Shown piece by piece: positions 127-60,963 of a stretch of 64,000 bases of DNA. Below the pieces are notes generated by a model. It saw only the letters and a list, made by a program, of their open reading frames with translations. It made no database searches and was not told the origin of the DNA. The position numbers were made by a program, and so were the translations under genes. Origin of the DNA: Symbiodinium natans (taxonomy: Eukaryota > Sar > Dinophyceae > Suessiales > Symbiodiniaceae); assembly GCA_905221605.1 (NCBI GenBank), contig CAJNDS010002134.1:43501-107500 (forward strand), in the 5' to 3' direction. The number at the start of each line of letters is the position of its first letter. The stretch's first letter is position 1.

Positions 127-3100
127 GGTTGCGGGTTGAGGGTTGAGGGTTGAGGGTGTTGGGGCTTCGGGGATTCAAGGTTTTGGGGTTCGGGGTTTAG
201 GGTTTCGATTGTGAGGTTTGAAAGGGTTTCAAGGGTTTGAGGGTTTGGGGCTTAGATGCGGTTTAAGGCTTCAGGGTCTAGGATTTTCAGGCCTTAGGTT
301 GGCGACCCTAAACACTAAACCCTAAACTGTTAACCCTAGACCCTAAACGCTGCTCAGCCTCCCTGGAGGTTATGGGTTGTTACAACTGGGCTGGCAGCAG
401 GGGAGCTTCAGGGAGAGGGAATGAACATTGAAGCATGTGGGCTGTAGGGGCCTTAAGAATTAGAATAGTGTTTTTTTGGGGGGGATTAAATTATACTTTT
501 AAAGGGGCCATAAGGGGATACGATTAGGTAATCACACCGACACCCCTGGAGTCGGCTGTCGGGCTTAGATTTCCTTGGAGTCTTGGGTTCAGGGGCCTCC
601 CCAGTCGTCCAGTAACCTGATATTAACCTTTGGGATACTGCCTAAAGAAGGTTAAAGGTTACCTACTCTACTACTAGGCTTCGTGGGTAAGGGCTGGAGG
701 ACTTTAAAGTGTGAGTTTGGTGGGCTTGATCGGGTCTGCGGGTTTCGGATGTCATGACAAAGGGCTTGGGTTGGGATGTTCCCCCCTTATACCAACAGTC
801 CTTAATAGGGATTATAGTACCCCCTAATACAATCCCTGTTAAGGGCTGTTAGTTTTAGGGGGGACATCCCAGGGCTTTGGATTCAAGGGCCAGACTGCTT
901 GGCTGCCTTCGGCCCCATCGCTGAGGCTATGGCAGTGGTGCAGAGGAAGAAGTTCTGGTGACCGCCCTGCAGACGGTGAGAAGGAGAACAGCGGGGAGAT
1001 TCTCCGACGGCTGCCCCCACAACGGAAGAAGGGAGATGTCCGCCCAAAATTTCAAGACTTGCGTAATCCGAAACCCTGAACCCTAAACCCTAAAGCCGAA
1101 CCCCCCCCCCCTCCTTTTTTTGGTCGTTTCCTCAAACCGTCCTTTCCACATGTGTTTGGAGGTCTCGGGTTTGGAGTTGAGCCAGAAAACAGCCTGCACC
1201 CCCCCCTTGGGCCCTGAAGCCCTGAAGGGTTGAGGGCTTAAGGCTTAAGAGTTCCTCTTGCAGTTTAGGGTCGAGGGTTCAGGGCTGAGGGTTTAGGGGC
1301 CTCGGGCCTTTGGAGGGTTGGGAAAGCTCCCCCCCGGCAGGGTTTAGGGTTTAGAGTTCAGGGTTTAGGATTTAGGGGCCTCAGGCTTTTTGAGGGTTGG
1401 GAAAACCCCCCCCCCCCCCCCCCACACCCCCACACCCCCACGCCCCTCTGCGGCCTTATTCGGGAAGCCCAGCGCACAGATAAACGCAATCACTCCACGC
1501 AGCCCGGCCATCCAGACCATGTGCATCTCCTCACCGTTTCAGGAAACGGGTTTACGGTTTGGGCTTCTCTAAACCCTAAGCCCTAAACCCTAAACCCTAA
1601 GCTGAAGGCTCGAGTACGATCTTAGCTGGCGCAGCTTCTTAGTCCGCGACACCTTCGCCGACAGCTTCGGCCCCGCCGAGACGCGGTTGGCGAGGAAAGA
1701 CAGCGGGTAAACGTTCCTCAGGGCAAGGGATCACTGGAAGGTTTCATGGGTAGTAGCCCTAAACCCTAAACCCTAAACCCTAAACCCGAAACCCCTAAAC
1801 CCCTAAACCCTAAACCCTAGACCCTAAACCCTAAACCCTAAACCCTAACCCTAAACCCCACACCCTATTTCCTTCGGACGGTGCCAGGCTCCCAACTTCA
1901 GGGCTGGGCGTGTCTTTATCTTGGCATTCCATGTCTCCCCCTTCTTGAAACTTGCCTTCAAAACCCAAAAACCCAAACCCGTGCGGGGTGGATCATGGAA
2001 AAACCATGTGACCGCTAAACCCTAAACCCTAAACTCTGAACCCTAAACCCTAAACCCTAAACCCGAAACAGCAACCTTAAGCCCTATTGGAGTTGGATTT
2101 TGTCTTCGATGTTGATTTTGCGAAACCCGCCAGGCAGCACTGCACGACCAATGAGGCAGGCAACGGCCGTCCAGGCCACCTCCGGACCCCACCCTAGGGT
2201 TTAGGGTTTAGGGTTTAGGGTTTAGGGTTTAGGGTTTAGGGTTTAGGGTTTAGGGTTTAGGGTTTAGGGTTGAGGATTTAGGGCTTCGGGTCCTTCCCGT
2301 GTGGGGGGCTTCCGAAGGTAGGGGCAGACCCTTCTTGGGGCGTTCCTCAAAAAACCCCCGAAAGCTCTGAGGCACAGAGACACCAACCCTAAACCCTAAC
2401 TCCCAAACTCTCCCAAACTCCCAAACTCCAAAACCCCTAAACCCTAAACCCTACACCCTAAACCCTAACCCCTAAACCCCTAAACCCCTAAACCCCGAAA
2501 CCCCGAAACCCACAGCCCTCAAGTCCGAAAACCCCTAAAACCGCCAAACCCCAGCCCCCTCAAACCCCGAAGCCCCAAAAGCGATGGGACGGGTTTCGGG
2601 CTTAGGGTTTATAGAGGGTTTAGGGCGAGAACTTCGTGGCTCGAAGCTTGAAGTTGTAGGGAGATTGTTGTCGTCTCCCCCCTCCCCTCCCCACCAGCGG
2701 CGCCGAGAAGGCACCCTGGATCATGAAGACGCCCAGGCCGAGAAGAATGAAGACCTCGCTCGAAAACCCGAAACCCAACTCATCCCCAAAAGCATCGAAA
2801 CCTGAAAAGACCTTAAGCCCGAAACCCCCTGAAGCAGAGTGACAGCCTCCCGAGCGGAAGGATTCTTCGGGGCTTCTACCGTCTGCAACGGTTGGCCGTT
2901 TCTCTGTTTTTTGTGGGGAGAGGGCCAAAGCTTACGTAGGGGTTAGGGTGTAGGGTTTAGGGCTACTTGGAGGTTCATGGGTAGTTATAAGTAGGGCTAA
3001 AAGTAGGGCAGCTATACTTGTCACGGGTAATAACCTTATGAAGGGCACTTGTAACCCTACTCATAACTACCCATGAACCTTCAAGTAGGGTTTGGGAAAC

Positions 3101-6100
3101 ACCCCGAAGAGCCTCGAACCCCTCAACCCGAGAACCCGAAGCCCCAAGCCCTGAGCCGCAAACATCACCGATGCTCCTTGCGGGGGGACCACCATGCCTA
3201 ACCGGGGCCTTTGCAAACAAAAACAAATGCGCAACAAAACGTCAGGGTCCAGCGGTTCAGGAGCACTAATTGCAAAAATCCCGAACAGACTCCAAATCGA
3301 AAAAACAATCCCAAGGCCCCAAATGAAAAGCTTACCATCACAAGCCCTGAGCCCTCTAAGTACTGAAAGCTGAAACCTGAAAGGGGTGGCGGAGTGGAGC
3401 CCATAACAACGATCCCATTTGAAATATATACATATATATGCATACAAATACGCCCAATCGCAATACCTTCCTCGTTCACGCCAACGCTCCATGCTGTAGG
3501 CAAAACCAGCCGAAGGTGCATAAGTCTCGCAGAGCGAAGCTATTAGTTCCACCGTCGGCAGGAAGATCTGCCGCGTCACCTGGCGCTTTCGGGGAATACT
3601 TTTATCACCAGGGCCTCTATTTCAGGGGTTGGGGTTTAAGGGGAGGGGGGGGTGGGTGGGGTGGGTGACCTGCATTAAATGGCTCCTGTTTTGGGGGTTC
3701 CCTGGAGATAAGGCTGCAACAGGAGAACCGAAAAGATTGGATTTAGCACTCCCAGGACCCATGGAGGGTACGCGCCGGAAGATTGAAAGCATCCCCCCTC
3801 CCCCAAGCTTTGGCCCTAACACCCAAAAGACCTGAGACCGATACCCTAAATCCCAAAACGATACGACCTGCACAGAGGTACCTGAACCGAAGAGGGTGAG
3901 AGTGCGCTGAAACTGTAAACCCAGACCCGCCTAGCTAGCGAGGGACTGACAGTGATTGCCGGGGTTTGAGGTTTGGGGTTTGGGGCTGAGGGTTTAGGGT
4001 TTAGGGTTTAGGGTTCAGGGTTTAGGGTTTAGGGTTTAGGGTTCAGGGTTCAGGGTTCAGGGTTCAGGGTTTAGGGTTTAGGGTTTAGGGTTTAGGGTTT
4101 AGGGTTTAGGGTTTAGGGTTTAGGGTTTAGGGTTTAGGGTTTAGGGTTTAGGGTTTACCTTCATACCATGGATCTGCAAAACACAGCAGCTCTCTGTGAG
4201 CTTCGCCTGCTCAAGGCAACTACTCTCCATCCCAGCCTGAGTCAAGTTGAAGTGCGCGTAGTGGCGCATTGTAATCCCTGCAAACCTTGGTAGCATGAAC
4301 CCGAAAAATGGGCTGATGCGAAGAAACTCAAATGTTTTATGTCCGAAGCCACATCACTGACTCTTTATATACGCATGTATAGTATATGTATGTCCGAAAA
4401 GGGAACCGTAACATGCAACATATACTCTACCCAATCGAAGCCTTAGTCTGTGGGGTGTTCCTGATTCCGTTCCAGGGGTTAGGGTTTGGGGTTTGGGCAT
4501 TTTGGGTCGTCTATGCTATCAGCGGTGAACCCAAGCCCCTGAGCTTACGAGCTTACTGTTGGTTCTTAGTGCATGAAGGAACCCTAAACCCTAAACCCTA
4601 AACCCTAAACCCTGCTGGCCAACAACAAGCCAGGGCTGCACTGAAGTTCCAAGGGGCATGATGGCTACAATGCCCGAGAGGTTGCAAGCCTCTGCCGCAA
4701 GGAACGGGACATAGGCGAGAACCTCAACTGCTTGCGTCTTGCAGTCCCTAAACCCTAAACCCTAAACCCTAACCCCTAAACCCCTAAACCCCTAAGCCCT
4801 TTAACTTTAAGGTTTGGGGTCCACTTCTTAGGATGTCCCCATCTCAGCAAGACATAAAACTTGAAAGGTGATCGCCCCTTCGCATAATCCCTACTCAATT
4901 ACTAAGACTATCTGGACAAGGGGTAGCATCTTGAGGATAGGGGCCCCGCTAACAGAACATAAGCCAACGCACGACACAGGGCACTCTCATGCAACCCCCC
5001 CCCTTAATCAACCCAGAAAAATCCTGGGAGATCCCACAATCAGCGTGCGATTGGCGTCTTCGGGCTGCCGACTTCTAGGGACTAGTGCACCACAAGTACC
5101 TAAGCGAAGCTCTTAGTATGTATCACGTATAATCCGCCGAGGCCTCGGGCCGGAGGTGTATAGGTTGTCAGAACAGGCACCCCCCTCCAAATCCTCCCCC
5201 CACACCCAAAGCAGTTTTCGGACCCCTTTTTTTGGCCTCAAATGGGTACCCCCCCCTGGGAAACCGGGGTCCGCAAGGACGGTTCGCCAGGACCAGAGGC
5301 AGTTGAAGCCCCTCCCAGCAGGGCCCCCCGCCGTTGTTCACCCCCCCTCTTCCCACACCCCCCCCCCACCCCCCCACCCCCCCCCCCCCCCCCCCACCCC
5401 CCTCCCCCTCCCCCCACCCCACCTCCCCCCACCCCCCCCCCCCCCTCCCCCCCACCCTTCCGAAGAGTCGCCTTAAACCTTAAGGGGCCTGGCTCAACCC
5501 TACGATCACTCCAAGCCGAACCCTAAACCCAAAAAAACCCTCAACCCCAAAGCGTGAACCTTGAGCCCTAAACTAACCCCAAACCCCAAACCATAAACCC
5601 GGAACCCTCAACCCTCAACCCTCAACCCAACCCTTATTGCTTGGGGTCCAGCGACTTGGGCGCTGCGGAATCACCATGCACGCGGATGCGCTGGGCCGGG
5701 CCGAGGCGGGTCGCGTAGCGTTAAAATTACCCTTGAAACCCTAAATATAGCTGCACATGACCCCAAAAGGTCCTCGGGGCCCGGGATCCTGTTTAGGGGT
5801 TCGGATTCCTGTTGAAAACCAGAATCCTCGACCTGGCTTGAGGGTTTAGTTCGTCAGAGTTTAGGGTTTAGGGTTTAGGGTTTAGGGTTTAGGGTTTAGG
5901 GTTCAGGGTTCAGGGTTCAGGGTTTAGGGTTTAGGTTTTAGGGCTGGGGGTCTGGGGTTTGGGGTTTGGGGCTGGGGGTTGGGGATTTGGGGTTGGGGGT
6001 TTGGGGCTTGGGGCTTAGGGTTCAGAGTTTTGGGTTCAGGCGTGTAAGTTTCCAGGCTTCTGGGGGCTTCCGGGGCTCTGGAACCTGAACCCTGCACCCC

Positions 6101-9100
6101 CAAAGCCTCTCTCAAGTCAACTTCAACTACCTGCAGCGGAACCACTGTGCCAAGATAAAACCCAGAAGTCCTCCACTTTCAACCCTAAGCCCTAAGCCCT
6201 AAACCCTAAACCCTAGACCCTGCATTGGAGTTTGGGGTTTGAGGCTTTCGTGTTCGATGCTTAGGGAGGCCGGGAAGCAAGCGCCACTCCGATTTCCGGA
6301 ATGTTGAAGTAGAGATGCTCACCTTCACCTCGGCCAAGGGAGACGTCACCCTAGCAATAAGGACCCACAAAAGGACTCTAATTTGAGAACTACCCACCTT
6401 GAACAAGGAATATCACCAAGGCCAAGCGCTGAGCAAGAAGAAGCGCACACAAAGCATGACGAGGTGAACGGATGGTGGACGGGCTAGTGAGCTTGCGAAG
6501 CGACCTTCGTGATGTTTGCAGCCCGTTGCTGCCAAACAGGACTTTGCCGACGAAACCGCAGTTCTCTTCAATGCCAGGGGCCGGGGGCATGCCGAAAAGC
6601 CGAAACTTCCGGTTACTACCCTCAAGCATTTCAAGGTAATGCTACAAGCGCCGGGTTTATCTCGACCCACCCGGTGTAAAGTCGGCCCAACCCCTGCGGC
6701 ACACAGCAATACAAACCCTCAACCCTTAACAACCCAAAAGCAAGCGCACACCCAGACCCCCCGAGGAGCCCCAATAGGAGCCCTAACCCCCCTCTCTTCC
6801 CCGCCCACCCACCCTCCTCCCGCAAAAGAGAACAAAGGAGAACCTGAACGGCCTGAGCCCCCCTAACCCCTCCAAAGCCTAAATGGGTCCCGAAAACAGG
6901 GGTGCGTTATTGGGGTCCTTATTTTACGGGAGGGTCTATTTTAGGGCTTCTCCTATTTTCGCAACCCCCCAGAATGTTGAGGGATGCTGGGGCTCGCGGC
7001 TCGACCCCGCCCCCAGCCGAGCAGACTTCAGGAGGAAGGCGGTGGCCAAGCCACCTCTGGGGAGCTTAGGTTTAGGGTTTTAAGGGTTTAGGGTTTTAGG
7101 GTTTAGGGTTTAGGGTTTAGGGTTTAGGGTTTAGGGTTTAGGGTTTAGGAGGGTTTAGGATGGTTTAGGGTTTAGGGTTTAGGGTTTAGGGTTTAGGGTT
7201 TAGGGTTTAGGGTTTAGGGTTTAGGGTTTAGGGTTTAGGGTTTAGGGTTTAGGGTTTAGGGTTTACCAGGGAAACCCTCCACGCAGGAATCCCGCAGCTG
7301 CAATCAAGCCCTCCCGCGCCTGCCACGCCTATGAGAGTCGACGCCGCGAAGACTTTCAGGAAGTTCAGAACGATCCTCCACTTGGAGGTTCAGTTCAAGG
7401 GTAGCTTTAACTAGGGATATAAGTACCCTAAAGAAGTAGTTACCCTACTGAAAACTCTACATAGCCACCCATGAACCTCCCAGCAGGGCGCGCCTTCATC
7501 CCATCCCCTTAATCTTTCAATCCCCCCTACCCCTGCCCCCTAGATTTTTAAATTCCCATTACAGTTACATTACAGAATTGTTATAGTGTATGGGGGGGGT
7601 TAGTATTTAGGGGGAAGGGATTACGATTTGAGCGGGTTCTCCAAAAGACGGAGCCGTCTCTTCAGGGCATCCAAACAAGGGTCCCTTAAACATCGCAATA
7701 GGTGCTTGACTCCTAGGTACTCTGTTCAAGGCCTGGCGCATGCTTCAGGGTCTACCCTCTGTGAGGCTTGAAGATTGGAGGATGTTCCCCCTTATACTAA
7801 CAGTCCTTAGTAGGGATAATAGTACCCCCTATTATAATCCCTATTCAGGAGCACAAGGGGGAACATCCCAACTTAAAGACCAGTTTGCCCGGCTGAAAGA
7901 GCAAGTCTTCCTGGCGCCGTTTGATGTTTAGGTGGGCCGTCTTTAACACCAACTGCCCCCCAGCGCTGCCTCGAAAAGGGCTTAGGGTTTAGGATGTGGG
8001 ATAGAGTTACAACAGGGCTCTTGTTAACTCGGCACTCCTGGTGCCAGTCCAGTCCTCGGCACATTGCACCAGCCAAATCGAAAATTGTCAACTCCACATA
8101 ACTCCACCCTCCACTTTGAAAGCACCAAGCCTCAATCCCTGGACTCAGAGCCCTCGGAGGTCCTTTAAAACAAAAACCTGGGGCCCTACAGCCTTTTCAA
8201 CCCTGAGGCGATGGCGCCACAATAGTTTCCCCCCCCCTCCCGCCCCCTTCGCTCCTCGCAGTCACAGCGGCATCGAGCGCCTGGGCTTAGAGTTTGGGAC
8301 TTCGGGCGCGCTGGAGCTCACTTGGAGGTTCAAGGGAATCTAGAGGCAGGGTTCTAAGTACCCTACATAAGGTTGAGTAGAATTACCCCTACGTAGGAGG
8401 TTCATCCCACTTGGAGGTTCATGGGTAGTCATAACTAGGTTTAGGGTTTAGGGTTTAGGCCTACCTGGAGGCTCAAGGGTAGCTATGAATAGGGTTCTAA
8501 GTGCCCCAAAATAAGGTTATAAGTGCAGTTACCCGGTTTTTGTAACCCCTCTTATGACTACCCATGAACCTCCGAACAGGGTTAGGGCTTCGGACCCACA
8601 CTTGAAGAATCAGGGCTCAGGGCTTAGGGTTTGGGTTTAGGGCGTAGGGCGCTTGGGCTAGAGTTTAGAACTGACCACCCCAATCAGGGGCAACTTGCAA
8701 CCCAACTTATCACTGCCCATGACCTTCACCCACCGATCTAATTAGGAGGAGTATTTGGGTGGCTTGCCTGCTTACAAACCCTCCACCCTAAACCCGAAAC
8801 CCTAAACCCGCCTAAACCCGCCTAAACCCTGAACTCTAAACCCTCATCCTTAACCCGCGATACCTGCCTCAACCCATGCGCCCCCCTGGCACCAACCCTA
8901 AACCCTAAACCCTAAACCCTAAACCCCAAAAAAACAGAGGGTGCCTCCCCGGAGCTCACCAGGTCGGCGAAGCTGCCGAAGAGTGCGATGGCAACCGCAT
9001 CGTTCAGTATGGACTCGCCCAAAACCTGGGGGCTCTGCGGTCATTGGGGATCTTATGAGCACTGGATCTAAACCCCAACCCTAAAGCCTGAAACCTAAAC

Positions 9101-12100
9101 CCTAAACCCTAAACTAAAACCTATATGTGGTGTATGAACGACTCTCCAAGGGGAGGGGCCTTCCCTTTAAATTTGCTAAGGGCCGATAGGGAATCCCGAA
9201 TAAACCTAAGCTGCTGAACCCTAAGCTCTCTCTGCAACCGTGGACACTGAACCCTCCAGTAAGCGCCCGAAACCCTCTCAATCCTCAACCAACCCGGAAC
9301 CCCAAACCCTAAACCCCAAACCCTAAACCCTAAACCCTAACCCCTAAACCCCAAACCCCAAACCCTAAACCCTAAACCCCTCTCAACCCTCCTCACAGGC
9401 CCGCGGAGCCGAGTAGTAGAGGTGGCCGCGGCCCTTTTCGGCCAGCGACTGCTCCTTGAAGATGGCGAGGGTGGTGACCTCTGGAGCTTCTTAGGGCTGT
9501 AGGGCTCTAGGGGCTTTCGGGTTTAGGGCTGTAGGGTTTAAGGTTTAGGGTTTAGGGTTTAGGGTTGTTACATAAGGCTCGCGAGGTCTGGTACTGGGCA
9601 AAAGGCTCCGAAGTTGCTCGCATTACTCCCCCAAATAACTCCTCAGCACGGTGTTGAGATGCTGGTTTCTACCTTCTTTGGGGGGGGGGGGGGGGCTTCA
9701 ACCCTCCAATCTCCCTGACAGCACTGCAACTCTGCGGCAGGATCCGTCGAGCTAATCATCGCTCCTTTGGGGGTTCAAGGTGAAGGGTCTGCGGTTTGGG
9801 GCTGGAGCTTGGAGCTCAGAGTTTGGGGGATTGGGCTTAAGGCTTAAGGTTGCTCTGCGGAGGAAGAGATACCAAAACATGATTTTAGAAGACACAGCAG
9901 TGAATAATCATAGGACCAGCCCACGCAAGCCACGTTTCCAGGCAAGGTAGGTGGAGGCGACGTGAGGGTTGTTTAGACGACCATGCAGCGGGCCGAAAAC
10001 TACAAGCGCGCCCGGGAGGTGAGCGCAACCAACTTTGCCAACTTGGAATGCTACAAGTAGTCTTCCTCCAATCCTTCCCGGGGCCTGTGCGTGCCTCGCG
10101 ATGCCTCTGTCCCTAGACCAACGCCCCTCAACCCATGACTCGCCACGGGCAACATGTTCATACGAAGCAGAAGCCACTTGCAGACGGGGCGCCGAAGGCG
10201 AGGCACTCCGCCAGCCCCAGCGTGATGCCGCCCGTGAGAGGCACCAAGTAGAAGATCGCGAAGGCCACGACCTGGCGCCGGATTCTGAGAAAGTGAAGAG
10301 GCCCCTGGGCCACCCTCCTCAAGCCTCACGTGGGGATTGCAGACGCCAGTCTATTCTACTACGATACAAAGCCAAGATGAACAAAGTGCCCCCCAACAAT
10401 TTGGGAGGTGTGACGGGTTTGGCATGTGGGGGATGCAGGGCGTGGGTTGCCCTGGATACCTTGGGGCACTGCATCATCCTGAACGCTAAGCCCCTTGAGA
10501 TACTACAAGGGGCCTACCAATTTTGAATGGGCTTTTGGGGTGCTTTACATCGCGGTTCTCTGGCCCGCTGCAGTGCTTAGAGGTTCGTTCGCATACTCTG
10601 CATGACTACTCAGGGACTCTTCCCCCAAGGGGAAAGCTAAATACCTGAAGACCGCAGCCGAAGCCCTCAAGAGCTGGAATTGAGGAATCGGGTTTAGGGT
10701 TTGGGGTTTAGGGTTCATGGTTTAGGGTTTAGGGTTAGAACTAGGGTCTAGGGTTGTGGTTTCTTCCGGGTTTCAATGCCCGACATGCACGACCTCGAAC
10801 ACCACGCTCCAGACCTCAAACTCTGAACTATGACAGGGCCCCCACCCTACAACGAAACCCTCCATCCTTTTAGGGTTTAGGGTTTTGGGTTTAGGGTTCA
10901 GGGTTCAGGTTTAGGGTTTAGGGTTTAGGGTCTTGGGTTGCGGGTTTAGGGTTTAGGGTTTAGGGTTTAGGGTTTAGGGTTTAGGGTTTAGGGTTTAGGG
11001 TTTAGGGTTTAGGGCACGACAAAAACATACACCCTAAACCTAACGTGTCCTGTCACTTTGGGGCGGCGCATGGGGGTGTCGGAACCCCTGAGAGCCCCCA
11101 CCAGGGCTGAGATCAGCGTGCCCAGAAACGCGTGCAACAAGATTCCTGGGCTGAGTGCTTAGGGTTCATGGTTTAGGGTTCAGGGTTTAGGGGTTATGGT
11201 TTAGGGGAATAATTCGAACTTTTTGGTTCTGGCATAAGACGCCCATGCACAAACGGCGCCACCACTTCTCCGGGGCTGGGGCGTTGGCCCGAAGGGGCTC
11301 CCTTTGCCAGCAACCAGGGCCGGCTCATGGAAGACTAACGGCAAACTTTGGGATATTCACCTTCCGCCTGGCAGAAGGGAGGCCATGCGCTACAGGCAGA
11401 GCAAGCCCGAATTGGGGGGCGGGGGTGTATTCGACCCATCTCCAATGCCGTTTACCCTAAACCCTAAAAACCCGAAAAAAACCGAAGAACCCAGAAATCA
11501 GCGTTGCTGGCGGGGAGGAAGTCGTGGGGGGAGCTTCGAGGTTCATCAGCCCCAAACGTATGGTATCCTCTACGCCCTCCCGCCCATGACAACCCAAATA
11601 ACTAAACCCTAAAAATCTAAACTTTAGGACCTAATGATCCCGATCCCCCTACACCTCCAAACTTACTCAAACACACATCCCCATTCAACTTCTTGGGCAA
11701 AATATCTGGCAGGACGCGCGTGATGTTATCGAAGAACTGCTGGCTCTTCATGCCGTAACCTCGGCTCTTCTAAAGCCCGCGCCTGTGCGGAGCTCAGGGG
11801 TTTAGGGTTCGGGCTTAGGGAGGCTTATGTGCAACCACAAGACCAAACGACCAAACACAAAAAGGGATACGTCAACAAGCCCTAGCAGCCTTCGGCGAAG
11901 ATGATGGGAGCAATGAATACCAGCCTTGGATCCAGCGCAGCATCCGCTTCGGTCCGAAAACCCCAAAAAACAACAAAAGCCTGAATCCGAAGTTAGCGTT
12001 GAGGGATTAAGGAAAATGGCTCAACTATCCTTGCGGCGCTCGACTCGCCTGGCCCGATAACTCTCCCGAAGCTGGCTCTCACCTCCCCCGCTTCGATTTC

Positions 12101-13953
12101 GACTTGAGGATGCTCCTCAAACCCTGCGTTTAGGGTCTAGGGTGTAGGGTTTAGGGTTTAGGGTTTAGTGTTTAGGGTTTAGGGTATGGGCCGTGGGTTT
12201 TCATGTAAGCAAAGACATCGTAGCGGCGCGATAGGACAGGTGGCATAAACTGCTTGGCAGACATGTCCTCCAGCTTCTCGAAAGTGCCCCGATTGACCTG
12301 CCCGCTGGCCGGCAGCAAAGAACGGCATTTTGGGGAAGCATCAGCGTTCAGGGTTTAGGGTTGAAGGTTTAGGGTTTAGGGTTTAGGGTTTAGGGTTTGG
12401 GGTTTGGGGTTTAGGGTTTGGGGTTGGAGCTTCGGGTTTTGGGTTTAGGGGGGTTTAAAGTGACCTGCCGCAACCTTTCCGACTTCAGAACCTTCCCAAA
12501 CCCTCGATCGTAAGAAGCTACTGGTTTGCAGGATGGTGGGGGGGGGGGGGGGGGGCTATGGGAGGCAGTTCCCAGTTCAGGGGGATTTCGAAGACTCCGG
12601 CACAAAGAGGTAACAATCTGCAAAGCCCAGATCCCCAGATCCTAACCCCTAACCGTAAACCCTCAGCCCCTAAACCCCCTCACCCCGCCCTCCCCCCCCC
12701 CCCCAACAAAAAGAATAACAAGAAACACATGAGACCCCGTGTGCACCTCAGGAAAGGCCGCAGCCACGGCGCCCAGGCCCACCCCCACCAGGATGGTTGA
12801 GATGGCCTCCAACGGGCTTAGGGCTTAGGACCAAGGCTTAGGGTTTAGGGTTTAGGGTTTAGGGTTCAGGTCTAGGGTCTAGGGTCTAGGGTCTAGGGTC
12901 TAATCTAGGCTAGGTTTAGGGTTTAGGGTTTAGGTTTAGGGTTTGGGGTTTGGGGTTTAGGTTTAGGGTTTAGGGTTTAGGGTTTTTTTAGGGTTTAGGG
13001 TTTAGGGTTTAGGGTTTAGGGTTTAGGGTTTAGGGTTTAGGGTTTAGGGTTTAGGGTTTAGGGTTTAGGGTTTAGGGTTTAGGGTTCAGGGTTTAGGCGG
13101 TTTAGGCGGTTTAGGCGGTTTAGGGTTTAGGGTTTAGGAAGCGGAAGCGGGGCAATATTGCGAGGTGGGAGGAGGGGTCCCTTTTTTTGGGGGGATGGCT
13201 TTTTTCCGGGGCTCATGAAGGGGCACCCCTACGGTGGGAGATACACTTGTGGCTCCTAGCTGCTGAGTTGGAGGGTGGGTGTATTGGAATGGGTGGGGTG
13301 TGACGATATTTCAACACTCGCATCACTGCTCCTTCAATTCAATTGCCTTCTAGCCGACAGAGAAGTCCAGAAGGGTTTAGGGTCTTACGGGGTATCTGAC
13401 CACTTCTCTCAAATATGGGCCCTTTTGGGGTCCTCAACTTAAGGCGGCCTCTCTTATTGAGGGTAACCAGAGAAAAGACCACCGTTTTGACAACTGCCCT
13501 AAACCCTAAACCCTAAACCCTAAACCCTAAACCCTAAACCCTAAACCCTAAACCCTAAACCCTAAACCCTAAACCGTATGGCTTGGGGATTACCAGGATT
13601 TCGGGCTTGCGCGACTCTCCAAGGGTGAAGGCCTGCCAAGAAAGGGTTCATCCTGACAACTTTGAGGGTCCGATGCCATAACCCAGATGGATTCTTCGGG
13701 CACAGAAGGACTTTTTGGGATTTAGGGCTTAGGGTCGAGCGAAAAGGCTTGGTAAACCCCAAACCCTAAACCCTAAACCCTAAACCCTACACCCTAAACC
13801 CGAAACCCTAAACCCTAAACCCTAAACCCAAGCCCAAACCTCAACCTCCTCGCTTTGGGGGCTTGGAACTCAAGAGCTTCGATGGCGGGCGCCGGCCTCG
13901 GGAATGGGCCATGACTGCTTTTGTATGACGTTGTTCACCACCAGAGTGATGGC
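1..13953 (-). CDS. Na+/H+ exchanger (NHE/NHX family), multi-exon gene, 3' end outside window
   Basis: Cation/proton antiporter of the CPA1 (NHE/NHX) family; in eukaryotes these membrane proteins exchange Na+ or K+ for H+ at the plasma membrane or in organelles. Minus-strand exons read in order give the family landmarks: PIPEAISTILVGVGLG (TM1), FIAPIIFAEGYGMK (LPPIIFE-like), GTLISAL, AFGAMISSTDP, TTLAIFKE, GESILNDAVAIALF (the FGESLLNDAVTVVL signature, with the transport Asp), LAAEACNLSGIVAIM, MRHYAHFNL, ASLCETY, FILLGLG, RAVNVYPLSFL, AGLRGVIAFICALG and TTAI/VIVVG. The joins between listed exons preserve phase, except at the low-confidence microexons between 5700 and 8960. Introns use GT, GC and GA donors and are filled with TTTAGGG-type arrays and short inverted-repeat elements. 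The C-terminal tail lies beyond base 1. Candidate extra 5' exons lie at 14190-14865. The order of motifs is close to NHE8/NHX proteins; the exact subfamily is inference. Confidence 0.82.
41..160. repeat. GGGTTGA array (telomere-unit variant)
   Basis: About 14 near-tandem GGGTTGA units with few substitutions. Confidence 0.85.
455..560. mobile_element. Family-E element
   Basis: Shares AAAGGGGCCATAAGGGGATA and TTAGGTAATCACACCGACAC with three other copies. Confidence 0.55.
772..871. mobile_element. Family-B inverted-repeat element
   Basis: TIR TGGGATGTTCCCCCCTTATA with inner CCTTAATAGGGATTATAGTA; about 100 bp. Imperfect 12-bp flanking repeat AGGGCTTxGG. Confidence 0.78.
928..966 (-). CDS. NHE exon GGHQNFFLCTTAI
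   Basis: Polypyrimidine tract and CTGCAG acceptor. Thirteen codons in phase 0, then a GC donor (GCCTCA). FFLCTTAI matches the FFxTTTLVI transmembrane segment after the GLRG motif. Confidence 0.6.
1455..1529 (-). CDS. NHE exon with the GLRG motif
   Basis: Encodes EMHMVWMAGLRGVIAFICAL followed by GFPNK (25 codons). The (A)GLRGAIAFAL motif is diagnostic for NHE/NHX. Donor GCCGCA. Confidence 0.85.
1653..1716 (-). CDS. NHE exon NVYPLSFLANRVSAGPKLSAK
   Basis: Starts with the last base of a split Val codon, so the join to 2139-2179 reads RAVNVYPLSFL, the conserved RA(x)N(I/V)(F/Y)PLS motif. GT donor (GTGTCG). Confidence 0.85.
1755..1855. repeat. CCCTAAA array
   Basis: About 13 units with minor variants, in the intron right of exon 1653-1716. 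Confidence 0.9.
2139..2179 (-). CDS. NHE exon VAWTAVACLIGRAV
   Basis: Transmembrane segment ending in the conserved RA. The GC donor (GCTGCC) is needed to keep phase into the next exon. Flanked by CCCTAAA on the left and TTTAGGG on the right. Confidence 0.82.
2193..2282. repeat. TTTAGGG array
   Basis: About 12 units directly right of exon 2139-2179. Confidence 0.92.
2695..2754 (-). CDS. NHE exon VFILLGLGVFMIQGAFSAPL
   Basis: Twenty codons in phase 0 between a GCGAG acceptor and a GTGGGG donor. Equivalent to the ETFIFAYLGLALF membrane segment. Confidence 0.82.
2963..3090. mobile_element. Family-A inverted-repeat element
   Basis: About 125 bp. TIRs TACTTGGAGGTTCATGGGTA and complement (one mismatch) with GTTATAAGTAGGG continuing inward. 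No coding capacity; MITE or introner-like. Confidence 0.8.
3520..3579 (-). CDS. NHE exon VTRQIFLPTVELIASLCETY
   Basis: Twenty codons after a GCCAG acceptor. The LASLCETY part matches the conserved LAFLAET(F/Y) helix and joins in phase to VFILLGLG. The donor appears to be GCACCT. Confidence 0.8.
3985..4155. repeat. TTTAGGG array
   Basis: About 24 units with TTCAGGG variants. Confidence 0.92.
4237..4277 (-). CDS. NHE exon (G)ITMRHYAHFNLTQ
   Basis: Matches the family pattern G(I)xMxHYxxxNLS. Starts with two bases of a split Gly codon after GTTTGCAG; GC donor GCTGGG. Confidence 0.85.
4650..4727 (-). CDS. NHE exon with LSGIVA motif
   Basis: Encodes EVLAYVPFLAAEACNLSGIV then AIMPL. (A)AExxxLSGIVA is an NHE hallmark. 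Phase into the next exon requires a GA donor (GAACTT), a dinoflagellate-type non-canonical site. Confidence 0.85.
5340..5455. repeat. Poly-C/CCCCA low-complexity tract
   Basis: About 110 bases of C with scattered A and T. Open frames through it are compositional artefacts. Confidence 0.9.
5675..5690 (-). CDS. Possible NHE microexon RIRVH(V)
   Basis: CGGCCCAG acceptor, 16 nt, then a GTGATT donor. The split codon completes to Val before EVLAYV. Very short, so supported only by splice sites and phase. Confidence 0.35.
5858..6010. repeat. TTTAGGG array grading into GGGGTTTGGGG variants
   Basis: Nine TTTAGGG or TTCAGGG units, then degenerate G-rich units. Confidence 0.85.
6131..6144 (-). CDS. 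Possible 14-nt microexon
   Basis: A strong acceptor (TTTTATCTTGGCACAG) and a GTAGTT donor bracket 14 nt lying where the cytoplasmic loop of the exchanger is expected. It could be a decoy pair. Confidence 0.25.
6398..6428 (-). CDS. Possible NHE exon RLALVIFLVQ
   Basis: Excellent pyrimidine-rich acceptor (CGCTTCTTCTTGCTCAG) and GTGGGT donor. A hydrophobic stretch is expected here after GESILND. A further splice-like island lies at 6304-6352. The phase through this part could not be closed. Confidence 0.3.
6883..6972. mobile_element. Family-F element
   Basis: CGAAAACAGGGG, TTATTGGGGTCCTTATTTTA, CTATTTTCGCAACCCCC. Confidence 0.6.
7064..7265. repeat. TTTAGGG array
   Basis: About 28 units, with one TTTAGGATGG interruption. 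Confidence 0.93.
7378..7488. mobile_element. Family-A inverted-repeat element (diverged)
   Basis: CACTTGGAGGTTCA at left, ACCCATGAACCTCC at right, same internal ATAAGTACCCTA. Confidence 0.7.
7497..7626. mobile_element. Family-I inverted-repeat element
   Basis: ATCCCCTTAATCTTTCAATC at left, GGTTAGTATTTAGGGGGAAG at right. Confidence 0.5.
7776..7871. mobile_element. Family-B inverted-repeat element
   Basis: GGATGTTCCCCCTTATACTA to AAGGGGGAACATCCCA. Confidence 0.78.
8319..8580. mobile_element. Cluster of family-A copies
   Basis: A truncated copy (8319-8408), a half copy (8408-8439) and a full diverged copy (8460-8580) in one orientation series. Confidence 0.65.
8960..9025 (-). CDS. NHE exon with the GESILND signature
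   Basis: Encodes VLGESILNDAVAIALFGSFA then DL, 22 codons in phase 0. Acceptor CCCCCAG, donor GTGAGC. This is the most diagnostic exon of the gene; ND is the ion-binding pair. Confidence 0.92.
9303..9382. repeat. CCCTAAA array
   Basis: About 11 units left of exon 9410-9478; TTTAGGG at 9540-9570 lies on its right. Confidence 0.9.
9410..9478 (-). CDS. NHE exon VTTLAIFKEQSL...
   Basis: Encodes VTTLAIFKEQSLAEKGRGHL then YYS. Follows SSTDP in phase and corresponds to the SAVDPVTTLAIFKEL segment. GC donor GCTCCG. Confidence 0.87.
9739..9764 (-). CDS. NHE exon (G)AMISSTDP
   Basis: A 26-nt exon. GAxISSTDP is the conserved FGALISAVDP motif. Donor GCCGCA. Confidence 0.8.
10193..10271 (-). CDS. NHE exon VVAFAIFYLVPLTGG...
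   Basis: Encodes VVAFAIFYLVPLTGGITLGL then AECLAF and the first base of Gly. The split Gly joins it to AMISSTDP. Acceptor GCGCCAG, donor GCGCCC. Confidence 0.85.
10868..11014. repeat. TTTAGGG array
   Basis: About 20 units with a few variants. Confidence 0.92.
11102..11145 (-). CDS. NHE exon ILLHAFLGTLISAL
   Basis: Matches the family motif (I)xxFAxxGTLISA. Acceptor AGCCCAG, donor GTGGGG. Joins VVAFAIF in phase. Confidence 0.85.
11718..11759 (-). CDS. NHE exon (G)YGMKSQQFFDNIT(R)
   Basis: Corresponds to the FE(A)GYxMxxxxFFxNIG segment. Both split codons (G|GT, C|GA) agree with the neighbouring exons. Donor GCGTCC. Confidence 0.83.
11890..11946 (-). CDS. NHE exon DAALDPRLVFIAPIIFAE
   Basis: FIAPIIFAEGY is the LLPPIIFEAGY (amiloride-site) motif of NHEs. 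Starts with CG of a split codon after CCGAAG; donor GCTGCT. Confidence 0.83.
12085..12117 (-). CDS. Possible NHE linker exon
   Basis: Splice-like island with acceptor TTTGAG and donor GTGAGA. Read as xGA ASSSRNRSGG G it would join the next exon as a hydrophilic loop. The upstream phase does not close. Confidence 0.3.
12230..12336 (-). CDS. Coding-like island, unassigned
   Basis: After an AGCGGGCAG acceptor the minus strand is open and reads VNRGTFEKLEDMSAKQFMPP and on through VLSRRYDVFAYMKT. It looks like protein but does not fit the exchanger. It may be an exon of another transcript or a nested fragment. Confidence 0.35.
12747..12806 (-). CDS. NHE exon AISTILVGVGLGAVAAAFPE
   Basis: Twenty codons in phase 0. 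Matches the LPESxxxxLVGxxxG first conserved helix. Joins PIPE of 13897-13953. Donor GTGCAC. Confidence 0.82.
12838..13135. repeat. TTTAGGG array with TCTAGGG variants
   Basis: About 300 bases. Includes a block of five TCTAGGG units and three GTTTAGGCG units near the right end. Confidence 0.93.
13499..13575. repeat. CCCTAAA array
   Basis: Eleven perfect units. Confidence 0.92.
13760..13830. repeat. CCCTAAA array
   Basis: About ten units left of exon 13897-13953; TTTAGGG variants on its right. Confidence 0.9.
13897..13953 (-). CDS. NHE exon AITLVVNNVIQKQSWPIPE
   Basis: Nineteen codons ending in PIPE, which completes PIPEAISTILVG. Acceptor CCGAG, donor GCCGGC. Confidence 0.75.
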
Positions 13954-14189
13954 CTCGGATGGGTTTAGGGTTTGGGGTCTAGGGTTTAGCGTTCAGGGTG
14001 CAGGGTTTAGGGTTTTGGGTGTAGGGTTTAGGGTTGTACTTGGAGGTTCAAGGCTTTCATACGTGGAGTTATAAGTAGGGATGGTGAGGGCGACGGAAGG
14101 ATGCCGCACTTGATGAGCACAATGGCATTCCTAGACCGTTGCCCGCTTACCCTACACCCTAGGCCCTAAACCCTGACAAAGGAACCCAG

Positions 14190-14865
14190 AACCCCAAAGA
14201 GAGCGCCAAAAGGCACCACTTCCTGCAAACAAAGCTGAACTTAACGCACAGCTTGGAGTGCGGAGCTGTTGGTACAAGCCCCTTCTAACCCTCGTAGACG
14301 ATGAGCAAGCCCCTTCTACTAAACTCTGAAACGTAACCCCTAAACCCTAAACCCTAAACCCTAAACCCTAAACCCTAAACCCTAAACCCTAAACCCTAAA
14401 CCCTAAACCCTAAACCCTAAACCCTAAACCCTAAACCCGACCCCAAACCCTAGCCTCAAAGCCACCTTGGAAAGACGCGAACTTGGGCTCGCGCCAGCAA
14501 GCTGACCTCGGAGCAAGACCAGGGTTCAGGATAGCTTAGGGTTTAGGGTTTAGGGCTGGGGTTTGGGGTTTGGGGTTTGCTCTTAAAACATAACCCCGAG
14601 AAAAATGGAAGCTGGGAAAATTCTGGGTAAATTCTGGGGGTTAAGCTGTGGTGCTGCATGCAACAGAGGGGTTGCCTGAATTCGGGAGTGAAGGGTTCTT
14701 AGATCTGGATTGCCGGATTAGGGAATACGTGATAAAGGTGGAATCTGACTCCCCCTCAACGCTCAAGAGCAAGCCCAAGATCAAATGCAGCCGATGAGCC
14801 AGCAACAGAACGTCCGTTGCATCGATCGTCAGATCCGATATGGGATCCGGCCCCGCTGCCACCAT
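14190..14865 (-). CDS. Candidate 5' exons of the NHE gene
   Basis: Three splice-like islands on the minus strand. 14755-14865 starts with ATG and reads MVAAGPDPISDLTIDATDVL followed by a hydrophobic LLLAHRLHLILGLLLS, then a GTTGAG donor. 14467-14506 reads VSLLARAQVRVFP between GAG and GTGGCT. About 14190-14222 follows a strong TTTGTTTGCAG acceptor. Membrane-like character and order suit the N terminus, but no conserved motif confirms it. Confidence 0.35.
14337..14445. repeat. CCCTAAA array
   Basis: Fifteen nearly perfect units. Confidence 0.92.
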
Positions 14866-15813: not shown

Positions 15814-16033
15814 TACGGGGGGCAACCGAAGGAGGACAGGGAACAAAACAGTCAACCCCAACAGAAGCCCTTGATCCCCTGGACCAACCAACACCAAACC
15901 AAACCCAAAAGACCAAGCACCCTTTTCTCACTAAGTGCACTGTCATCTTGAGCCAAAAAAGATTTCCGGGTTCGTTGACCCTTTTCAACTCCCATCACCA
16001 ACTTCTTTCTACAATACCAGTTGCAGCTCCGCA
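15814..16033 (-). repeat. 3' LTR of the copia element
   Basis: 220 bp, identical to 25490-25709. Contains the spliced-leader-like TTTTGGCTCAAG on the minus strand at 15947-15958. Confidence 0.95.
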
Positions 16034-16046
16034 CTCCCCCTGTCCT
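16034..16046 (-). other. Polypurine tract
   Basis: Minus strand AGGACAGGGGGAG lies immediately upstream of the 3' LTR. It is the expected plus-strand primer for reverse transcription. Confidence 0.7.
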
Positions 16047-16219
16047 AGGATTTCCTAGGACACATTGGAGGTGCAGTTCTTTGGCCAAAAACCGCCATTT
16101 AGGCAGTAGCCAGCTGCTTAAAATGCACATTATGGTTTTACGTCATCCAGGACGAACCTTCAGCTCATTGGCCGAATCCCTTACCATTGAGGATTTCTTC
16201 ACCTCGCACTTGAAAAAAT

Positions 16220-25457: not shown

Positions 25458-25474
25458 TTCCGCAGGAAGCCTAA

Positions 25475-25489
25475 GTTGGGCTCATAACC
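25475..25489 (-). other. Primer-binding site (half-tRNA initiator Met type)
   Basis: The plus strand reads GTTGGGCTCATAACC up to the LTR edge. It resembles the anticodon arm of initiator tRNA-Met (loop CUCAUAA), not a tRNA 3' end. Drosophila copia likewise primes from a tRNA-iMet fragment. Confidence 0.6.
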
Positions 25490-25709
25490 TACGGGGGGCA
25501 ACCGAAGGAGGACAGGGAACAAAACAGTCAACCCCAACAGAAGCCCTTGATCCCCTGGACCAACCAACACCAAACCAAACCCAAAAGACCAAGCACCCTT
25601 TTCTCACTAAGTGCACTGTCATCTTGAGCCAAAAAAGATTTCCGGGTTCGTTGACCCTTTTCAACTCCCATCACCAACTTCTTTCTACAATACCAGTTGC
25701 AGCTCCGCA
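25490..25709 (-). repeat. 5' LTR of the copia element
   Basis: 220 bp, identical to the left LTR. It must hold promoter and R region in its minus-strand sense. The spliced-leader-like 12-mer is at 25623-25634, followed directly by ATG. Confidence 0.95.
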
Positions 25710-25714
25710 CCCTA
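25710..25714. repeat. Target-site duplication, right (CCCTA)
   Basis: Matches 15809-15813; the telomere-type unit continues beyond it as CCCTAAACCCT. Confidence 0.85.
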
Positions 25715-25804
25715 AACCCTGACCACTCCCAGCCATTTCTGCTCACGCGCGCCTCTGCAGCGATACATGCCACAGCCACCTTGTGAAGATGGCTACGTCG
25801 CCAC

Positions 25805-25896
25805 CGCCTCTGCGAAGCTGGGCGGGTACCAGCCCTCCGTCGGCCCAGCATCCAGGGACCCAGAGCTCCGCTCCAGTATCCGGGCAAACTCCTCGA
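25805..25896 (-). CDS. Exon of unidentified gene (GWYPPSFAEA)
   Basis: Between GGCCAG and a GTGGCG donor: EEFARILERSSGSLDAGPTE then GWYPPSFAEA (30 codons). The GWYxP motif recurs in 28093-28194 (GWYVPPLEA), suggesting a repeated module. It is the first coding island right of the retroelement. Confidence 0.5.
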
Positions 25897-59015: not shown

Positions 59016-59108
59016 CACTTGGAGACTCAAGGGTGGTTGTAAGGTAGGGTTACATCGTTACCCTACTTTTTAACCCCACTTAGAACTTCCCAAATGAACC
59101 TCCAAGTA
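59016..59108. mobile_element. Family-A element abutting a SET-gene exon
   Basis: CACTTGGAGACTCAAGGGTG to AAATGAACCTCCAAGTA. Its right edge meets the exon beginning at 59112. Confidence 0.72.
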
Positions 59109-59247: not shown

Positions 59248-60963
59248 CATAGGACGTGGGGTCCCCCTTGAAGGTTCATATAGATTCTTTCTTTGAATAG
59301 GGCTACGTGTGCAACAGCTAGGGCTATAATCATCTCTTCATAGAGATAGAACTACTGTACCTAGAACCTCACCTTTGAACACCCCATGCACTTTCGGGAG
59401 GAGGGCATTCAGGGCTCCCGGCTTGGGGGTTGAGGCTCCTTGGCCAAGAGCTGCCGCATCTCCTCCTCCTTGCCAGGCTCCCCACTAACTAGACACAACG
59501 GGAAAAGGGTGTCCTCCCCTCCCCCCCCCCCTCGCAGCCCGAAAGGGAGAAGTCCTGGCCTGCAGAACCAGCCCGCAAGCCCCACAGGGAGCAAGCGTTG
59601 AAACTTCCAGGCCGTCGGCTCTCACCGCAAGGCTCCCAGGGCACTCGGCAGTGGGGCACCGAAAGCAGCGTGTGGCATCTGCCGGCACCTGAGAGACCGG
59701 TGCATTGCGGGCTAGGAGGGACTTGGGAGGCTCGGGTTCGGCTGCCCACAGAAATGGTGGTCAGGCCCGGTTAGGCTGCGGACCTTGCATCGGGCACAGC
59801 AGCAATGGAACTGCCAGCGCTGCAGCACATGCCGACGCCAGGAGGTGGGCAGATGCAGGAAGTGAAGCATAGGCAGGACGTTGCGCTCTGGATAGCCTCA
59901 GGTTCTGGAGAGCCCAAAAAAAACCGTGAACCCCTCGTGAACACCCCCGACCCTGCGCACACTCAAGGCCCTAAATCCTAAACCCTAAACTCCTAAACCC
60001 TAAACCCCTAAACCCTCAACCTCTTCCCAGGGGCAGATGCACAGCTCCTTCCCCGGCTCCACAGCCACGGTGGCCAGTGCCATGAGCTCCCCGGGCTCCC
60101 CGGTTGGCAGCAGGCGCACGTTGGGCTCGCAAGAGTGGTTGAACCTCAACTGGGTTTAGGGTTTAGGGTTTAGGGTTTAGGGTTTAGGGTTAGGGTTTAG
60201 GGTTTAGGGTTTAGGGTTTAGGGTTTAGGGTTTAGGGTTTAGGGTTTAGGGTTTAGGGTTTAGGGTTTAGGGTTTAGGGTTTAGGGTTTAGGGTTTAGGG
60301 TTTAGGGTTTAGGGTTTAGAGCTTAGGGTTTAGGATCTAGGGAGAAACCCTAAAGCCCTCTTCAAGATATGTGGGGTTTACGATGTTAGGGGGGTACATT
60401 CTTGGGGGTCCTTATGATAATGGAATCCTACTATTTGCGGTCTATATTGGGGGTCCCCTATTCCGTAAACCCCATATGACTTCCCGAATATTACCCATGT
60501 ATAGTACCCATTTACTTACACCCAGCGCCCTAAAGCATGCCCTGTTGAAAGCGATATCTTGTTCGATAGTTGCCAGGCTGCCAGGTACAAAACCAAGCAC
60601 ATACTTGACTGGCCTTCTTGACTCTTCATGCGCACTTCACGGTAGAGCGAAAGGCTCCGTACCAAACAAAATGCCCCAACTTTCCCCACCTATGACCCTC
60701 GGTAAGGCCATGAACTTTCAAATCCACAGGGAGTCGTCGGGCGCTTGACCCCCCGAACCACAGATTTACTGTTTTAAGCTTCAACTTTTCGTACCTAGCA
60801 ACCTGCTGATCTTGTGGAAGATGCACTGCTCATGGCCCCTGCGGCTCATAAAGGAAAGCTTGTTGGCATCCCAGACCTGGGTCACCGAGCGTGTCGACCC
60901 TAAACCCTAAACCCTAAACCCTAAACTTAAGGTTTACAAGGTCGCGGAGTTGCTCTTCCAGCT
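59112..60963 (-). CDS. SET-domain protein, SMYD-like lysine methyltransferase
   Basis: Exons in order read LEEQLRDL, VWDANKLSFMSRRGHEQCIF HKIS(R), FNHSCEPNVRLL...LATVAVEPGKELCICPWEE, RRHVLQRWQFHCCCARCK, and ATRCFRCPTAECPG with a further CGAC pair. (R)FNHSCxPN is the catalytic SET motif that forms the SAM/Tyr pocket. The CxCxRC post-SET cysteines and the following Cys-rich segment are the SMYD arrangement. The joins between 60938-60963 and 59626-59688 keep phase. C-terminal helical exons follow at 59412-59494 and 59112-59247. The N-terminal SET and MYND parts should lie further right but were not found with confidence (weak candidate 61659-61682, AAELLAEL). Expected role: S-adenosylmethionine-dependent protein lysine methylation. 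Confidence 0.8.
59412..59494 (-). CDS. SET-gene exon EEEMRQLLAKEPQPPSREP
   Basis: Acceptor CTGGCAAG, then a polar helical segment. The left boundary is not fixed; the frame reaches a TGA just beyond. Confidence 0.5.
59626..59688 (-). CDS. SET-gene Cys exon VPADATRCFRCPTAECPGSL
   Basis: 21 codons in phase 0, acceptor GTCTCTCAG, donor GTGAGA. The frame stays open to about 59510 and adds LAPCGACGLVL, so the donor may not always be used. Confidence 0.7.
59784..59896 (-). CDS. SET-gene exon with CxCxRC
   Basis: 37 codons: YPERNVLPMLHFLHLPTSWR then RHVLQRWQFHCCCARCK. F(H)CxCxRC is the SMYD post-SET zinc site. Acceptor CCTGAG, donor GTCCGC. Confidence 0.78.
60021..60144 (-). CDS. SET-domain catalytic exon FNHSCEPN
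   Basis: 41 codons: FNHSCEPNVRLLPTGEPGEL then MALATVAVEPGKELCICPWE. NHSCxPN is invariant in SET enzymes. CCCTAAA left, TTTAGGG right. Confidence 0.9.
60150..60335. repeat. TTTAGGG array
   Basis: About 26 units right of the FNHSC exon, whose left side has CCCTAAA. Confidence 0.93.
60369..60478. mobile_element. Family-F element
   Basis: TGTGGGGTTTACGATGTTAG to CCGTAAACCCCATATGA; internal GGTCCTTATGATAATGGAAT. Confidence 0.72.
60803..60876 (-). CDS. SET-gene exon VWDANKLSFMSRRGHEQCIF
   Basis: 24 codons plus AG. The split Arg codon leads directly into FNHSC. Acceptor GACCCAG, donor GTTGCT. Confidence 0.8.
60877..60937 (-). other. 61-nt intron made largely of telomere-type units
   Basis: In transcript sense it runs from GTAAACC to GACCCAG and contains four TTTAGGG units. 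The exons on both sides are in phase. Confidence 0.6.
60938..60963 (-). CDS. SET-gene microexon LEEQLRDL
   Basis: 26 nt between TGCATAAG and GTAAAC. In phase with VWDANKL. Confidence 0.5.

Follow-up and report, generated by a model that had tools for sequence, protein, structure and literature searches.

Many exons of the dinoflagellate Symbiodinium natans lie between telomere-type repeats which point outward from them, and this arrangement is genome-wide. On the plus strand a CCCTAAA array (R) stands to the left of the exon and a TTTAGGG array (F) to its right. That TTTAGGG is the telomere unit is taken from a review on dinoflagellates, not from the S. natans genome itself. The window analysed here, a stretch of 64,000 nt, is covered by such repeats to about one tenth (55 F and 53 R arrays, counted from 14 nt upward). 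An earlier note on this DNA had named 15 exons with R at the left and F at the right. All 15 are so flanked, 14 of them by arrays that reach 14 nt or more on either side; the exception is exon E3 (12747..12806, minus strand), whose left R array measures only 10 nt. These were hand-picked cases. As a general property of exon flanks the orientation is real and genome-wide, yet weaker than the list implied. Two more of the 15, both on the minus strand, illustrate the setting. The predicted exon 43557..43655, which has a strong codon score and no convincing Pfam match, sits in the R-F island 43530-43688. A SET-domain-like exon (60021..60144, FNHSCEPN...; PF00856 at E 4e-4, just under the curated cut-off) occupies an R-F island with arrays only 5 and 7 nt away.

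The gaps between neighbouring arrays show the same order. In the window R→F gaps bunch at exon size, 19 of 27 falling within 84-160 nt, and F→R gaps have no exon-size cluster (2 of 27 in 80-170 nt). Random 4-kb stretches (ten, one of them, L043, all N) gave 10/16 R→F versus 2/13 F→R gaps of 80-170 nt. By Fisher's test the contrast has p 9e-8 for window and random stretches combined and p 0.02 for the random stretches alone. The islands between R and F are GC-richer and exon-like, with a GC content of 0.605 (n=36) versus 0.52-0.56 in other array orders (p 7e-6). L043 was omitted from the GC and exon-orientation counts, and 15900-27600 from the window exon counts.

Pairs of opposed repeats at set spacings were then counted over the 759-Mb assembly, independently of any exon call. 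At the exon-size spacing of 95-125 nt there are 163,885 R→F matches versus 53,725 F→R, a ratio of 3.05; at 350-380 nt, the other of the two spacings compared, the figures are 140,991 and 137,110 (ratio 1.03). The order bias thus appears at one of two spacings. These numbers are matches, and the genomic places behind the 163,885 are perhaps half as many; when the first 100 matches listed were counted by hand, they came down to about 50 places in the R→F order and about 34 in the F→R order. Relative to its own far level each order behaves differently, F→R being low near by (0.39x) and R→F slightly high (1.16x), with the reservation that the far spacing is no proper baseline per order. We read this as a wrong order lost more than a right order gained. 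The material is abundant: exact (TTTAGGG)3 words number 1,185,204 + 1,184,385, about 2.4 million in all, versus 41 and 33 for the reversed control. Viral contigs scanned for both array orders returned 0 each; near kin of S. natans may be absent there.

When array orientation was counted around predicted exon edges, the bias emerged close to them, faded by 60 nt and reversed beyond. Codon-model exons of the window (58) have 39 agreeing versus 11 disagreeing arrays within 60 nt (p 0.003). A second exon model, trained on kinase genes and applied at three rising score cut-offs, gave 44:19, 28:9 and 13:6 in the window (p 0.003, 0.003, 0.07) and 21:10, 12:6 and 8:4 in the random stretches (p 0.03, 0.08, 0.16). 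With the 15 listed exons left out, which itself biases against the pattern, the window ratios drop to a non-significant 24:19 (p 0.30), 11:9 and 5:6. Widening the range to 150 nt leaves little or no bias at the lowest cut-off (49:37 in the window, 24:18 in the random stretches). Resolved by distance, the 90 exons predicted at cut-off 7 in window and random stretches gave 21:2 at 0-20 nt, 16:7 at 20-40 nt and 13:7 at 40-60 nt, followed by a reversal to 4:9 at 60-100 nt and 1:5 at 100-200 nt; the exon model behind these bins was trained on the 15 listed exons, and exons outside the exchanger gene described below are predictions. Loci on contig 1, picked for the R-F pattern and tallied apart, gave 21:5, 23:10, 4:5, 2:3 and 2:9 in the same bins. 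On predicted exons, then, one orientation prevails from 0 to about 40 nt, and to 60 nt at the most, with CCCUAAA preceding the acceptor and UUUAGGG following the donor. For arrays this close to splice sites, the strand preference originally suggested is upheld.

The succession R-exon-F reads identically on both strands, so a simple skew of the transcription or replication strand cannot produce it; strand composition would make the arrays on either side of an exon point the same way and was rejected as a cause. Pfam families, tried as exon anchors, led chiefly to long open frames, whose sole use was as a control poor in arrays (array cover was 2.0% in 30 kinase loci, 12 of which had any 14-nt array). 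Acceptor motif counts (TTGCAGG 5059+2731 versus CCTGCAA 9512+5245, a direction against the model) were set aside: the control word CCTGCAA differs only slightly from the array unit and, among the matches listed, often stands at the end of an array.

The sole gene here with exon edges fixed by homology encodes a Na+/H+ exchanger (1455..14865, minus strand, at least 18 short exons). It was recognized by PF00999 on the joined exons (E 1e-4, 21.7 bits, under the curated cut-off of 26.2) and by tblastn with the homologues P0001-P0010; junctions were chosen by hand from reading-frame continuity. Introns with unsure edges or exons (next to E1, E9-E9b, E12-Ek) were omitted and 15 were kept. Exon E2 (13897..13953, minus strand, AITLVVNN...), 100% identical over 20 aa to P0005 from Symbiodinium sp. 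CCMP2592, has R at left and F at right, as has E8 (9410..9478, minus strand). The latter is bordered on its donor side by a plus-strand CCCTAAA array (9304..9379), TTTAGGG in the transcript, and on its acceptor side by a TTTAGGG array (9519..9566), CCCTAAA in the transcript. Another TTTAGGG array (2195..2271, plus strand) stands 15 nt off the acceptor of exon 2139-2179, and the longest array of the gene (12913..13138, plus strand) lies in the acceptor half of intron E2/E3. Two plus-strand arrays have the wrong orientation, 1757..1858, which lies 40 nt off the acceptor of exon 1653-1716, and 10869..11014, which lies 87 nt off the E6 donor. Altogether 18 of 28 arrays of at least 10 nt are oriented as the nearer splice site would predict (p 0.09), and 13 of 21 of at least 14 nt (p 0.19); when only the array nearest each splice site is taken, 14/18 and 10/16 agree, respectively. 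In this gene alone the orientation bias (18/28) stays below significance. A related asymmetry is that G+T is higher at the 5' than at the 3' end in 10 of the 15 introns (Wilcoxon p 0.008).

To say that introns begin and end with arrays, as first worded, is loose, as the nearest arrays of this gene are mostly about 14-100 nt off the splice site. In acceptor halves, arrays of the preferred orientation lie 14, 15, 24, 31, 38, 40, 106, 196 and 220 nt from the acceptor, those of the other orientation 39, 40, 68 and 205 nt. The arrays had also been suggested as a possible aid to unusual donors and tiny exons. This link is not seen in the exchanger gene. Donors are GC in 10 of the 15 introns and GA in none, and among the three introns that lack arrays of 10 nt or more two have GC donors (E7/E7b, 9765-10192; E11/E12, 6329-7000) and one GT (E9b/E10). 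The 26-nt micro-exon (9739..9764, minus strand, MISSTDP, GC donor) has an array-free upstream intron; its downstream intron holds one array, 40 nt from the next acceptor.

As the most favoured reading we tentatively infer that the polarity is set by a local filter at each splice site. Heptamer arrays are scattered through gene regions in both orientations, and their polarity would be decided separately at each splice site, the filter acting on each intron end alone. Before an acceptor, UUUAGGG would present a row of UUUAG|GG decoy acceptors, and CCCUAAA is AG-free with a CUAA core resembling a branch point. After a donor, UUUAGGG supplies GGG triplets. Such triplets are a known type of intronic enhancer. 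Arrays of the wrong orientation near an exon would be lost and those of the right orientation would be harmless enough to stay or even of use; the model does not require the two intron ends to pair. Support comes from the mirrored, spacing-specific bias, from the way it weakens away from the edges of predicted exons and from the uncoupled intron ends in one gene. A possible difficulty has to be explained away: UUUAGGG after a donor also holds G|GUUUAG, a potential decoy donor.

The main rival to such a filter is insertion polarity, i.e., that the arrays came with the events which made or enlarged the introns; we consider it unlikely. Either the outer ends of the inserted introners or MITEs are telomere-type, or telomerase extends both 3' ends of a break (TTTAGGG left, CCCTAAA right) prior to rejoining; both variants lead to introns which start with TTTAGGG and end with CCCTAAA. 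Insertion would fit the apparent absence of at least eight introns between E5 and E12 from a relative's P0001, which is 62% identical over half of the query and spans this stretch unbroken. P0001 looks like one unspliced open frame, and both its ends read like run-through into noncoding DNA. Further, intron E9b/E10 (7376..7476, minus strand, downstream of the putative exon E9b) consists of one member of the inverted-repeat (MITE-like) family TACTTGGAGGTTCATGG, with a shared direct repeat of 5 nt and no telomere array. The end of a second copy (59016..59108) coincides with a predicted donor (TACTTGGAG|GTTCAT). The 21-nt terminus of the family has 953 exact copies, and within 4 nt on its outer side stands TTTAGGG in 497 places versus CCCTAAA in 190. 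The family is nevertheless far too small to be the source of about 2.4 million 21-mers, and was rejected as such. In mammals, short interstitial telomere repeats are reportedly put in during break repair (PMC7215372). Against insertion in general, the direct repeat shared by the ends of the 15 exchanger introns averages 2.67 nt, the same as for mismatched introns, the two ends of these introns are uncoupled, the bias is gone past 60 nt, and F→R and R→F are equal at 350-380 nt. In its most specific form, many introns would be telomere-type repair scars: a break in a coding exon, telomerase acting on both 3' ends, rejoining as in a telomere-telomere fusion, and splicing of the scar. Exons would thereby come to have repeats on their two sides that are oriented like the telomeres at the two ends of a chromosome, which matches the observed orientation; we give this history only a slim chance.

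Improbable, too, is the model from which the earlier note set out, in which the TTTAGGG 5' end and the CCCTAAA 3' end of one intron form a stem joining the splice sites. The strands are complementary, within-intron stems are predicted in two of four small folded segments, e.g., in intron E2/E3, and the own-end duplex of this intron is the strongest (-161 kcal/mol). Small tests nonetheless spoke against the stem. Of 15 introns, 8 have a TTTAGGG-rich 5' end and 7 a CCCTAAA-rich 3' end; 3 have both, with 3.7 expected by chance. Among the ten exchanger introns of at least 300 nt, duplexes of an intron's own 150-nt ends average -79.1 kcal/mol versus -83.0 for ends from different introns; the across-exon duplex reaches -98.0 (n=5) and shuffled ends -74.9. 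Folding, which the earlier note had recommended, gave at least as many array-array base pairs looping out exons as in intron order (862 versus 704 in 18 transcript segments), and in two of the four small segments an exon-looping structure was predicted. Moreover, two GC-donor introns are array-free. On 15 introns of one gene pairing of intron ends is disfavoured; the sample is small, hence disfavoured rather than excluded. Finally, a generic noncoding-flank effect, with arrays barred from exons and orientation due to chance or choice of cases, could invoke the window outside the 15 listed exons (24:19 at best) and the exchanger gene, neither significant, but is already hard to keep and has hardly any credence left, as the spacing counts show a threefold order bias without exon calls and the random stretches agree.

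A repeat that occupies about one tenth of the window and forms 163,885 exon-size outward-pair matches is thus placed non-randomly relative to exons. If the local filter is true, simple repeats report strand by strand what the dinoflagellate spliceosome, with donors often GC, tolerates beside splice sites. If insertion is true, telomere biology has been a genome-wide source of new introns.

Dinoflagellate introner elements carry 8-20 nt inverted-repeat motifs, for which the terminal 30 bases were searched, and 3-5 nt direct repeats (PMC7789003, PMC10666404, PMC11114475). The introners of Amoebophrya, Prorocentrum and Symbiodiniaceae resemble the present case in inverted repeats at both intron ends, many non-GT donors and the spread of introns. 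The S. natans arrays differ in being telomere-type, 10 to >200 nt long and unmatched within an intron: in the one gene scored, inverted repeats at both ends of an intron are no more frequent than expected, and its 15 introns have no 3-5 nt direct-repeat signal on average, the MITE-like intron with its 5 nt apart. Zebrafish intron-end dinucleotide repeats, reportedly described by Lin et al. in 2016, are said to bridge introns. They share with the arrays complementary simple repeats at opposite intron ends; co-occurrence in the same intron, apparently at the core there, is not seen here in one gene (3/15). Inverted complementary repeats around an exon, such as Alu pairs, have been linked to exon skipping and circular RNA (PMC9198270) and, like the arrays, could loop the exon out, whereas in S. 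natans the arrangement is common around exons without known alternative use. The short interstitial telomeric sequences of mammals are likewise internal telomere-type arrays, reportedly absent from human exons (PMC7215372), and the S. natans arrays resemble them in being runs of the probable telomere repeat at internal sites. Compared to the mammalian sequences, the S. natans arrays stand out by about 2.4 million exact 21-base words and by their polarity relative to exons at exon-size spacing.

The window, positions 43501-107500 of contig C1822 (52% GC by base counts), holds 55 TTTAGGG arrays (F) and 53 CCCTAAA arrays (R) of at least 14 nt, as read on the forward strand, which cover 10% of its length. 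No array of this length is present in 15900-27600. This region includes a retroelement-like sequence (16220-25481, minus strand), itself without such arrays, copia-like by eye and with two long overlapping open frames of 1280 and 1848 aa. Variants of the telomere unit with 9 bases form arrays at 33221-33578, (ACCCTAAAC)40, and 34804-34955, (TAGGGTTGA)17.

The 15 exons listed by hand in the earlier note are flanked by R on the left and F on the right as described, 14 of them by arrays of at least 14 nt. Between neighbouring arrays 19 of 27 R-to-F gaps in the window measure 84-160 nt; F-to-R gaps are scattered. The same holds for ten 4-kb stretches taken at random, one of which consists entirely of N: gaps of 80-170 nt make up 10/16 from R to F and 2/13 from F to R. 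The order bias is also evident genome-wide, independently of gene calls. In the assembly of 759,417,921 bases and 2543 contigs, exact matches at a spacing of 95 to 125 number 163,885 for R-N-F versus 53,725 for F-N-R, and at 350 to 380 140,991 versus 137,110; these are matches, and a long array is counted several times in all four classes of order and spacing. Counted by hand, the first 100 matches listed fall at about 50 places in the R-F order and at about 34 in the F-R order.

The GC content of R-F islands 70-300 nt long is 0.605 (n=36), compared with 0.541 for F-R, 0.522 for F-F and 0.559 for R-R (R-F versus the other classes, p 7e-6; window plus random stretches). Best exon scores against shuffles are weakly higher in R-F than in F-R segments (median z 1.31 vs 0.34, contig-1 loci included). 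Recognisable protein exons lie in some R-F islands: one is SET-like (60021-60144), and three belong to the Na+/H+ exchanger (2139-2179, 9410-9478, 13897-13953).

The orientation is a matter of short distances. With codon-model exons from window and random stretches, arrays agreed:disagreed with the claimed orientation 21:2 at 0-20 nt, 16:7 at 20-40 nt and 13:7 at 40-60 nt, then 4:9 at 60-100 nt and 1:5 at 100-200 nt. Contig-1 loci, picked by their R-F pattern, gave 21:5, 23:10, 4:5, 2:3 and 2:9 over the same intervals. Tested against shuffled labels up to 60 nt from predicted exons, the claim holds in the window (39:11, p 0.003) and is less firm in random stretches (11:5, p 0.07). A second exon model, trained on kinase genes and used at several score cut-offs, yielded 44:19 (p 0.003) in the window and 21:10 (p 0.03) in random stretches at the lowest cut-off; higher cut-offs yielded 28:9 (p 0.003) and 13:6 (p 0.07) in the window, 12:6 (p 0.08) and 8:4 (p 0.16) in random stretches. 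When the hand-listed exons were removed from the window, no significant bias was left at the lowest cut-off (24:19, p 0.30), and the higher ones gave 11:9 and 5:6. Twelve tandem kinase-domain matches, several with equal scores, cluster at G000:C1019:16657-35637.

Homology to the proteins P0001-P0010 places Na+/H+ exchanger exons along 1455-14865 on the minus strand. The Pfam match is under the curated cut-off. A Symbiodinium sp. CCMP2592 protein is identical to the gene over 20 aa, 95% over 21 aa, and 65% to its first exon. Fifteen introns were delimited by reading-frame continuity with hand-picked splice sites; donors are GC in 10 and GT in 5. A micro-exon of 26 nt (MISSTDP; 9739-9764, by homology) has a GC donor. 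A very C-rich tract of about 117 bases lies at 5341-5457. Within the fifteen introns, arrays of at least 10 nt tend to the claimed orientation towards the nearer splice site (18/28, p 0.09; donor halves 9:6, acceptor halves 9:4), as do 14/18 when the nearest array per splice site is taken; at a minimum of 14 nt the figures are 13/21 and 10/16. Wrongly oriented arrays include 1569-1600, 1757-1858, 2602-2625, 9094-9114 and 10869-11014.

The proposal that UUUAGGG and CCCUAAA pair as a stem within each intron is disfavoured. R-exon-F is likewise complementary, and at a shorter distance. Folding of 18 segments of 2.8 kb produced 862 array-array pairs looping exons (R-F) versus 704 looping introns (F-R). 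In the 10 introns measuring 300 nt or more, 150-nt ends have a mean duplex energy of -79.1 kcal/mol with their own partner versus -83.0 with different introns; across exons it is -98.0 (n=5), for shuffled ends -74.9. Matching arrays at both ends occur in 3/15 exchanger introns versus 3.7 expected. Thus, the complementarity is general and not specific to introns; a strong effect would be expected to loop out exons just as easily.

An origin of the polarity by insertion has real support. The relative's protein P0001 spans exons E5-E12 (6288-11763) unbroken, so at least eight exchanger introns appear to set the two lineages apart and to be missing from that stretch of P0001. Further, a MITE-like family of about 100-125 bp (terminus TACTTGGAGGTTCATGGGTAG; first 17 bases with up to 3 mismatches, 29 matches across the window versus 0.26 expected) forms one exchanger intron (7376-7476), and another copy ends at a predicted donor (59016-59108). 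Its members frequently adjoin telomere units, and do so in the order F-array/MITE/R-array in five contacts, at 2962/2964, 14035/14037, 31298/31300, 32628/32630 and 44775/44777; termini also surround a CCCTAAA array next to a predicted exon (31300-31352; L045:2868-3005). Genome-wide, contacts within 4 nt of a terminus number 497 for TTTAGGG and 190 for CCCTAAA; this order is therefore a preference, not a rule. Strand bias of transcription or replication is ruled out because the arrangement is unchanged by reverse complementation, and the remaining cause is tied to both sides of the exon.

The local bias, the seeming independence of the intron ends and a deficit mainly in the wrong order favour a filter at each splice site, in which each intron end would act separately. 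As read from the sequence, UUUAGGG contains UUUAG/GG and CCCUAAA has no AG. CCCUAAA may act as a branch point and the G-triplets of UUUAGGG as an intronic enhancer.

Among the mostly open-access sources covered, none described telomere-type arrays with a polarity around exons. Dinoflagellate introns bearing an inverted repeat at each end are already known as introner elements, to which the polarised telomere arrays can be likened.
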